Below the pieces are notes generated by a model that had not been told where the DNA came from, searched no databases, and worked only from the letters and a program-made list of their open reading frames with translations. From the NCBI RefSeq assembly GCF_036346615.1, contig NZ_CP107836.1, positions 1,426,001 to 1,490,000 on the forward strand: a DNA stretch of 64,000 bases, written 5' to 3'. The position numbers were made by a program, and so were the translations under genes. Numbering within the stretch: the stretch's first letter is position 1; each line of letters starts with the position of its first letter. This document shows, piece by piece, positions 40,493 through 56,303 of the stretch. The stretch comes from Streptomyces sp. NBC_00523. Its GTDB lineage: Bacteria; Actinomycetota; Actinomycetes; Streptomycetales; Streptomycetaceae.

Positions 40493-40650
40493 GACCGTCC
40501 GGCACATGGTGGGCGGATGAAGGAGCGGGGCTGGGTGCGTGCAGCTGCAAGGCGGAGGATTGAGGCAACGCGGAGCGTTGGTGATTGACGACAACGCCGC
40601 AGATGCGCGTGCCCAGCCCCGCGACGCCGCCCACCATGTGCCGGGCGGTC
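40493..40650 (+). repeat. 158-nt structured hairpin element, copy 1
   Basis: Terminal arms 40493-40516 and 40627-40650 pair over 24 bp with one T-G. An inner 18-bp stem (40525-40542 with 40605-40622) begins GCGGGGCTGGG/CCCAGCCCCGC and contains three G-T pairs. The apex has CTGC/GCAG and GGCG/CGCC helices and two small hairpins (CAACGC-GGA-GCGTTG at 40566-40580; TTG-ACGA-CAA at 40585-40594). The second copy is at 56098-56255. 113 nt are identical, and arm differences are compensated. All G-T pairs are legal only in a plus-strand RNA. It ends against the -10 element of the DUF202 gene. Confidence 0.85.
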
Positions 40651-40656
40651 TAGGGT
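40651..40656 (+). promoter_or_regulatory. Leaderless-type -10 element before the DUF202 pair
   Basis: TAGGGT is followed by six nt and the GTG at 40663, with no ribosome site between. That is the spacing expected when transcription starts at the start codon. The matching -35 region would fall inside the right arm of the hairpin element. Confidence 0.55.
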
Positions 40657-56028: not shown

Positions 56029-56082
56029 CGTGGCCGGTGCCCGGCCGGTCCGTCGTTGACAGGAACGCACCCGCGCACGATG

Positions 56083-56098
56083 CTGAGCAAGCGCTTAG
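56083..56098. promoter_or_regulatory. TetR operator, maoC side
   Basis: CTGAGCAAGCGCTTAG has inverted ends CTGAGC/GCTTAG (one G-T pair). It is identical over 16 nt to 57505-57520 before the TetR gene at 56834-57457. Its last base is the first base of the left arm of the hairpin element. Confidence 0.72.
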
Positions 56099-56255
56099 AC
56101 CGACCGGCGAGTGGAGGGCGGGTAAAGGAGCGGGGCTGGGTGCGTGCAGCTGCAAGGCGGAGGATTGAGGCAACGCGGAGCGTTGGTGATTGACGACAAC
56201 GCCGCAGATGCGCGTGCCCAGCCCCGCGACGCCGCCCTCCACTCGCCGGTCGGTC
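56098..56255 (+). repeat. 158-nt structured hairpin element, copy 2
   Basis: This copy has the same length and layout as 40493-40650. Arms 56098-56121 and 56232-56255 pair perfectly over 24 bp, and pairing extends one base outward to 25 (56097 with 56256). The segment 56125-56237 is identical to 40520-40632. Arm positions 6, 12, 13, 14 and 18 differ from copy 1 and the opposing arm changes at each matching position. It lies between a TetR operator and the maoC start, so a maoC transcript starting near the operator would carry it as leader. Confidence 0.85.
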
Positions 56256-56303
56256 TGAAAAAGCGTGGACGATCAGTGGAGCGTGAAGGGCAGGAGCAGG
56301 GAC

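Follow-up and report, generated by a model that had tools for sequence, protein, structure and literature searches.

The repeats carried by the 64,000-nt stretch of Streptomyces sp. NBC_00523 analysed here (the window) are probably copies of a non-autonomous, wholly palindromic MITE, whose arms would be terminal inverted repeats (TIRs) used in trans and whose inner stem and core would form a selected single-strand fold. The core was found in two phyla, Actinomycetota and Bacillota, and polymorphic insertions showed it to be mobile in one piece, with its two arms. Selection on the structure, as proposed in the original prediction, was supported by covariation, among 11 copies of the host genome and among 30 copies from different phyla, and by an asymmetry between the two strands.

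Sequence and predicted fold of the window copies

Copy 1 (40493–40650) and copy 2 (56098–56255) are both 158 nt long and on the forward strand, which is the structured one. They were identical at 146 of 158 positions; the 113 identical nucleotides mentioned in the original prediction are the longest uninterrupted run only. The 24-nt arms occupy 40493–40516 and 40627–40650 in copy 1, where they are of a type similar to that of mobile S. atratus copies, and 56098–56121 and 56232–56255 in copy 2. All 24 arm positions form standard pairs in each copy, and the five pairs that differ between them were, as predicted, all compensated (6/153 TG-AT, 12/147 AT-GC, 13/146 CG-AT, 14/145 AT-GC and 18/141 TA-AT). 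Two more differences, at positions 25 and 27, lie inside an internal loop.

The inner stem was also recovered, with 19 pairs rather than the 18 announced (element positions 33–51 with 112–130). In copy 1, fold and alignment placed its 5' side, which carries conserved tandem wobble pairs, at 40525–40543 and its 3' side at 40604–40622. Further inside are two core motifs, also present in other phyla with letters fixed by the search pattern: GCAAGGCGGAGGA (40547–40559 in copy 1, 56152–56164 in copy 2) and GACGACAACGC (40587–40597 and 56192–56202). When 10 flanking nucleotides were included at either end, minimum free energies were -126.3 kcal/mol for copy 1 and -129.2 kcal/mol for copy 2, corresponding to z-scores of -11.8 and -13.5; none of 200 shuffles was as good for either copy.

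Distribution in the host genome and its relatives

With the core as BLAST query, 13 matches were obtained in the host genome, two of them halves of a single copy separated by an insert of about 45 nt. A covariance model built on 11 copies gave 25 matches there (weakest E-value 5e-6), one being an antisense hit on an already counted copy, hence 24 loci. Among 41 genomes (the host and 40 relatives), 24 had a match to this model, the highest count being 49 in genome G012. The outer arms differed widely among copies, with pairing largely kept. In the 11-copy alignment 94.0% of cells were paired, 32 of 55 pairs showed a double change, and covariation reached 0.499 against 0.151 for shuffled alignments, slid structures not exceeding 0.122; these are figures that are somewhat favoured because the structure was derived from the rows on which they were counted. 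The tandem U-G/G-U pair was retained in 10 and 11 of the 11 copies, respectively, and a GGA apical loop occurred in most of the first 12 host copies. No known RNA family was recognised with Rfam 15: 17 kb of the window contained no match at E≤1, and none of six distant loci reached a gathering score. No match was found among 50,697 phage records.

Two variants of the element were encountered. A second repeat of about 43 nt (GGGGTCTCCCCTGCTCGAGCGAAGCCGAGAGCTTGGGGAAG or close) lies within the apical hairpin of many copies (L013/L010, L057, L058, L061, L062 and, in S. atratus, L433–L444, L446 and L447); in S. atratus it replaces the GGAGC loop. On S. atratus plasmids, L426 and L435 or L437 represent one insertion site in different strains with copies having or lacking this apical insert, which suggests exchange between copies. 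Minimal hairpins, consisting of two facing TIRs with hardly any core, occur in the window's genome, in a relative and in one Lachnospiraceae genome (L100, L101 and L109; L390, L395 and L408).

Conservation of the core across phyla

The GCAAGGCGGAGGA…GACGACAACGC pattern was present in at least 119 stretches from Actinomycetota and Bacillota. Actinobacterial matches came from Streptomyces, Kitasatospora, Nocardia, Gordonia, Nocardioides, Pseudonocardia, Micromonospora and Propionibacteriaceae, and those of Clostridia, many of them metagenome-assembled, from Lachnospiraceae, Blautia and others; relatives of the element occur in soil and gut bacteria. As the search pattern fixes the letters of the motifs, their invariance is not evidence, while all letters outside them were free. 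At least 35 enclosing base pairs were counted in 103 of 120 parsed matches, several of the others being cut by sequence ends. Arms were unrelated between distant groups, and AT-rich in Clostridia, yet paired.

For 30 cross-phylum copies, 82.3% of cells were paired and covariation was 0.585 compared with 0.192 after shuffling and at most 0.135 for slid structures, the structure having been taken from the same sequences; the number of pairs with double changes was less telling, being reached by 37 of 500 shuffles. A model of these copies found matches in 23 of 296 Actinomycetota genomes and 13 of 192 genera. The apical loop was not conserved across phyla. Three copies of Clostridia (L211, L212 and L182) display, further out, a second internal loop (GCGCAGGA / AGACAAGC) resembling that of the core.

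Strand specificity of the fold

When only one side of a base pair undergoes a transition, one strand is left with G-U and its complement with A-C. The ratio GU/(GU+AC) going outward was 0.99, 0.92 and 0.77 on the strand bearing the core motifs, versus 0.08, 0.31 and 0.49 on the reverse complement folded alike; the asymmetry was weak at more than 40 nt from the core (0.77 versus 0.49). Since wobbles are concentrated on the core strand, that strand is the folded one. With RNA energies it was also the more stable in all of the 98 non-redundant copies used for this comparison, by 20.6 kcal/mol on average. These copies were drawn from 251 parsed ones (131 of 151 loci, 20 being missed by the regular expression, and 120 named ones), reduced to 234 after 17 with fewer than 35 enclosing pairs were dropped. 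The structure was therefore shown to be a property of a single strand, a restriction that is tightest around the core and loosest in the outer arms. The folded strand is most likely RNA, single-stranded DNA being less likely.

Mobility and insertion sites

The mobile element envisaged in the original prediction was borne out by polymorphic plasmid insertions, with two clean empty/filled sites, both in comparisons of near-identical plasmids. The sequence GAATTAGGCAC of S. atratus NBC_00043 corresponds to GAATTA[GACC...GGTC]TTAGGCAC in NBC_01545, with duplication of TTA (L425 versus L450). Likewise, AACTTGAGCG in Streptomyces NBC_01014 and NBC_01387 is filled as AACTTGA[AGACC...GGTCT]TAAGCG in NBC_01766 and NBC_01267 (comparison of L423/L424 with L454/L455), the duplication being imperfect (TGA/TAA). 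A third candidate was not clean (L427 versus L452 and L453). Neither arm was present at the clean empty sites, so copying of the arms from the target was rejected.

Three S. atratus plasmids carried 25 copies, many of them near-identical at different sites; target site duplications were imperfect in several. A plasmid survey gave 49 places in 23 Streptomyces records; among the best 23 of these 49, 19 were in annotated records and none of the 19 lay under an annotated gene, the gene table being incomplete. TA occurred close to the two ends in 45 of 185 cases, compared with 5 of 208 in a control, with an end-finder that often stopped early. The window copies are flanked by inexact triplets, TAT/TAG for copy 1 and TTA/TGA for copy 2, in which TTA at 56095–56097 is the probable target triplet and TGA occupies 56256–56258. 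The element was absent from the orthologous upstream stretches of 21 relatives for the site of copy 1 and of 23 relatives for that of copy 2. A motif search over the whole orthologous loci of both sites found no element except one in L120, a copy of another arm type located past the opposite query end. Because orthologous intergenic regions align poorly, the junctions could not be read from those relatives.

Relationship of the arms to IS5-type transposons

An IS of about 950 bp, present in three copies in the host genome, has TIRs that belong to the arm family GGGCCTGTCCGGCGGATCA. Both ORFs of one of these copies match NF033580 ('IS5 family transposase') and together cover the profile; the core motif was absent from the one IS sequence read. 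In genome G012, a related transposase gene lies between inverted repeats, one reading CTAGGGCGTGTTTTAGAAGT, which is the outer arm of the S. atratus hairpin copy L448. When a repeat finder was applied to 30 loci encoding related transposases, about a dozen showed clear inverted repeats of the same TAGG type, and the remainder gave mostly short, chance-like matches. Some arms, at least, are thus TIRs of IS5-type elements. Since several arm families match the ends of such ISs, the element was read as a palindromic MITE moved in trans.

The window arm type, GACCG(A/T)CCGGC, is also that of most S. atratus copies. No IS with GACCGWCCGGC arms was found beside transposases in a transposase search of four genomes or records. 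Similarly, no autonomous IS with Lachnospiraceae arms was found in 30 of 40 listed places from five genomes; one of the 30 gave no reading and one was misplaced, the remainder being copies of the hairpin, ends that were minimal or truncated, and chance-like matches.

Divergence of the arms

Changes were counted over 1868 copy pairs, which are not independent. The closest copies (15 pairs at most 2% apart) displayed 25 one-sided changes and no double change. At 2–5% divergence, arms showed 8 paired double, 10 non-pairing double and 47 single changes, and no double change was seen in the inner stem or core. Double changes appeared with distance, one-sided arm changes outnumbering paired double ones at every distance. 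In these counts 'arm' covers all sequence at a distance of over 40 nt from the core, including some flank pairing by chance, so uncompensated arm changes are inflated. S. atratus carries a one-sided, uncorrected arm mutation at four sites. Taken strictly, such further copies with uncompensated arms are what the original prediction had named as its refutation; pairing still remained far above controls.

Copying of the arms from each other, suggested in the original prediction, is disfavoured, both as a general mechanism and as a step at each transposition, by the exclusively one-sided changes of the closest copies and by the four-site S. atratus mutation. The pattern is that of compensation acquired gradually, and copying between arms is not obligatory. 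Slow, stepwise compensation fits poorly with the window pair, which has 10 differences in its arms and none along its 113-nt run; this pair and the 8 paired double arm changes at 2–5% would allow matched arms to arise occasionally by a faster route.

Gene context and orientation

Of 103 high-GC copies, 36 were in co-directional contexts in sense and 31 in antisense, 27 between convergent and 9 between divergent genes. The gene on the 5' side was in sense for 63 copies and in antisense for 40, a weak orientation bias only. According to an in-house gene caller, at least 99 of the 103 lie between predicted genes; an overlap of over 60 nt with a gene was seen for no more than 4 copies, possibly including some outside the 103. 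Consistent placement 3' of same-strand genes, as expected of intrinsic terminators, was not found in the 103 copies.

Copy 1 has a NUDIX gene and a DUF202 gene as its neighbours and stands directly before the latter, whereas the genes on either side of copy 2, MerR and MaoC, are divergent. Copy 1 abuts TAGGGT (40651–40656), a -10-like hexamer that immediately precedes the DUF202 gene in 11 of 21 relatives as well; the DUF202 promoter may have had its upstream half displaced by the insertion. The interval 56030–56100, between the MerR and MaoC genes, contains TTGACA and a palindrome, GCTRAGCANNNGCTTAG, which is present in 21 of 23 relatives and at the edge of which copy 2 was inserted.

Orientation relative to replication was determined from dnaA. 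The core strand was on the leading-strand template for 19 of the 24 host copies, all of which were counted, and for 41 of 50 copies in six genomes of the genus (host included) and G033, from another family; within this set G033 gave 4:3 and G015 0:1. Four added genomes, counted by hand, contributed 21 copies (G293 12:2, G075 2:0, G226 1:0 and G319 3:1), the terminus of G293 and G075 being assumed opposite dnaA. The total was 59:12 against replication with G012 left out (P = 1.3e-8) and 79:29 with G012 counted as linear (P = 1.6e-6), P values that are too small because copies of one burst are not independent. G012 itself showed no bias (20:17 if linear, 18:19 if circular). Outside the host, only listed copies on the dnaA-bearing contig were counted (37 of 49 in G012, 9 of 19 in G019, 7 of 10 in G033, 5 of 7 in G009, 3 of 13 in G004, 1 of 3 in G005 and 1 of 2 in G015), and G007 was left out. 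The simplest reading of this bias is a loss of copies exposing a stable hairpin on the lagging-strand template.

Alternative explanations

The identity of the folded strand calls for caution, as G-T wobbles stabilise single-stranded DNA as well, so that neither the wobble test nor folding with RNA energies separates it from RNA. The strand could thus act as single-stranded DNA, recognised or replicated in transposition or at the replication fork, a reading favoured by the GGA loop of most of the first 12 host copies and by the 59:12 bias, which hints at a role of the strand in the DNA itself. We consider it unlikely, however: the stable strand is on the leading-strand template, where it is less exposed, a pattern closer to avoidance or loss of the hairpin than to its use, and G012 shows no bias. 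The apical loop, moreover, is not kept across phyla, and TIRs with a TTA duplication are typical marks of double-strand DDE-type insertion. Another view, tentative and clearly less probable than that of a MITE, is that of a mobile RNA gene: an ancient RNA module, recognised by a conserved internal loop, would be spreading in Actinomycetota and Bacillota with terminal repeats borrowed from whichever IS5-type transposon is available, its ends changing together while the core stays fixed.

Matched arms could also be mutational rather than selected if template switching or cruciform repair copied one arm of the palindrome onto the other. All 10 arm differences of the window pair are paired beside its 113-nt identical run, and paired double changes at 2–5% divergence occur in the arms and not in the inner stem or core. 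Such self-correction is nonetheless improbable given the absence of double changes among the closest copies, the many single and unpaired double changes of the arms at 2–5% and the mutation left uncorrected at four S. atratus sites; copying would, in addition, erase the conserved wobble pairs and asymmetric loops. It is very improbable that the elements are transcription terminators or stabilisers of mRNA 3' ends. The hairpin is very stable, convergent contexts outnumber divergent ones and the 5'-side gene is more often in sense, but this context bias also fits a loss of copies from promoters, co-directional copies are almost evenly divided between sense and antisense, and recent polymorphic insertions speak against such a role, as do the positions of the window copies, one directly before a gene and the other between divergent genes.

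Discussion

Under the preferred reading of a palindromic MITE, the outer arms would be TIRs used in trans by transposases of family IS5 or similar ones, with insertion mostly in intergenic regions at TA-containing targets. An IS5-type transposase would also move the window's own arm type. The inner stem and apical core would fold as one single strand, most likely RNA and presumably acting as such, and selection would keep this inner fold with gradual compensatory change. The arms would be matched because one transposase needs two suiting ends and because the hairpin is itself selected.

No recognisable description of this family was found in the open-access literature, most subscription papers lying outside the scope of the search. 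The kind of element is known, since whole-hairpin MITEs have been described: QMITE2 of Coxiella is short and non-coding, with TIRs of 23–29 bp and a core of 113–145 bp, and its whole transcript is predicted to form a single hairpin (PMC10969869). MITEs also tend to occupy intergenic sites (PMC10969869). The present element resembles QMITE2, as far as the consulted part of that report goes, in its short, non-coding nature, its TIRs, its end-to-end hairpin and its intergenic tendency. It differs in combining a core common to two phyla with unrelated arms, and in a strand specificity shown by wobble asymmetry, a test for which no QMITE2 counterpart is reported in that part of the source. With family IS5 (NF033580) it shares the TIRs of some arm families and TA in the target; unlike these ISs, it has no transposase gene, and its core motif is missing from the one IS read.

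REP, REPIN and BIME elements are likewise palindromic, intergenic and mobile in trans, via RAYT transposases, whereas the present element is about 160 bp or more and has TIRs and a target duplication. The dispersed imperfect palindromes ERIC, YPAL and the Rickettsia palindromic elements, of 100–170 bp, are also alike, and are not known outside narrower host groups. The part for which no description was found in the open-access literature is the cross-phylum, strand-specific core.

MITEs are usually treated as transposons that have lost their middle. In the present element it is the middle that is conserved, as a single-strand fold across phyla and with a tendency to face against replication, and the ends that vary. 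It makes it possible to test whether a transposable element can carry, or itself be, a functional RNA, for which the covariance models and the polymorphic insertions are starting points.
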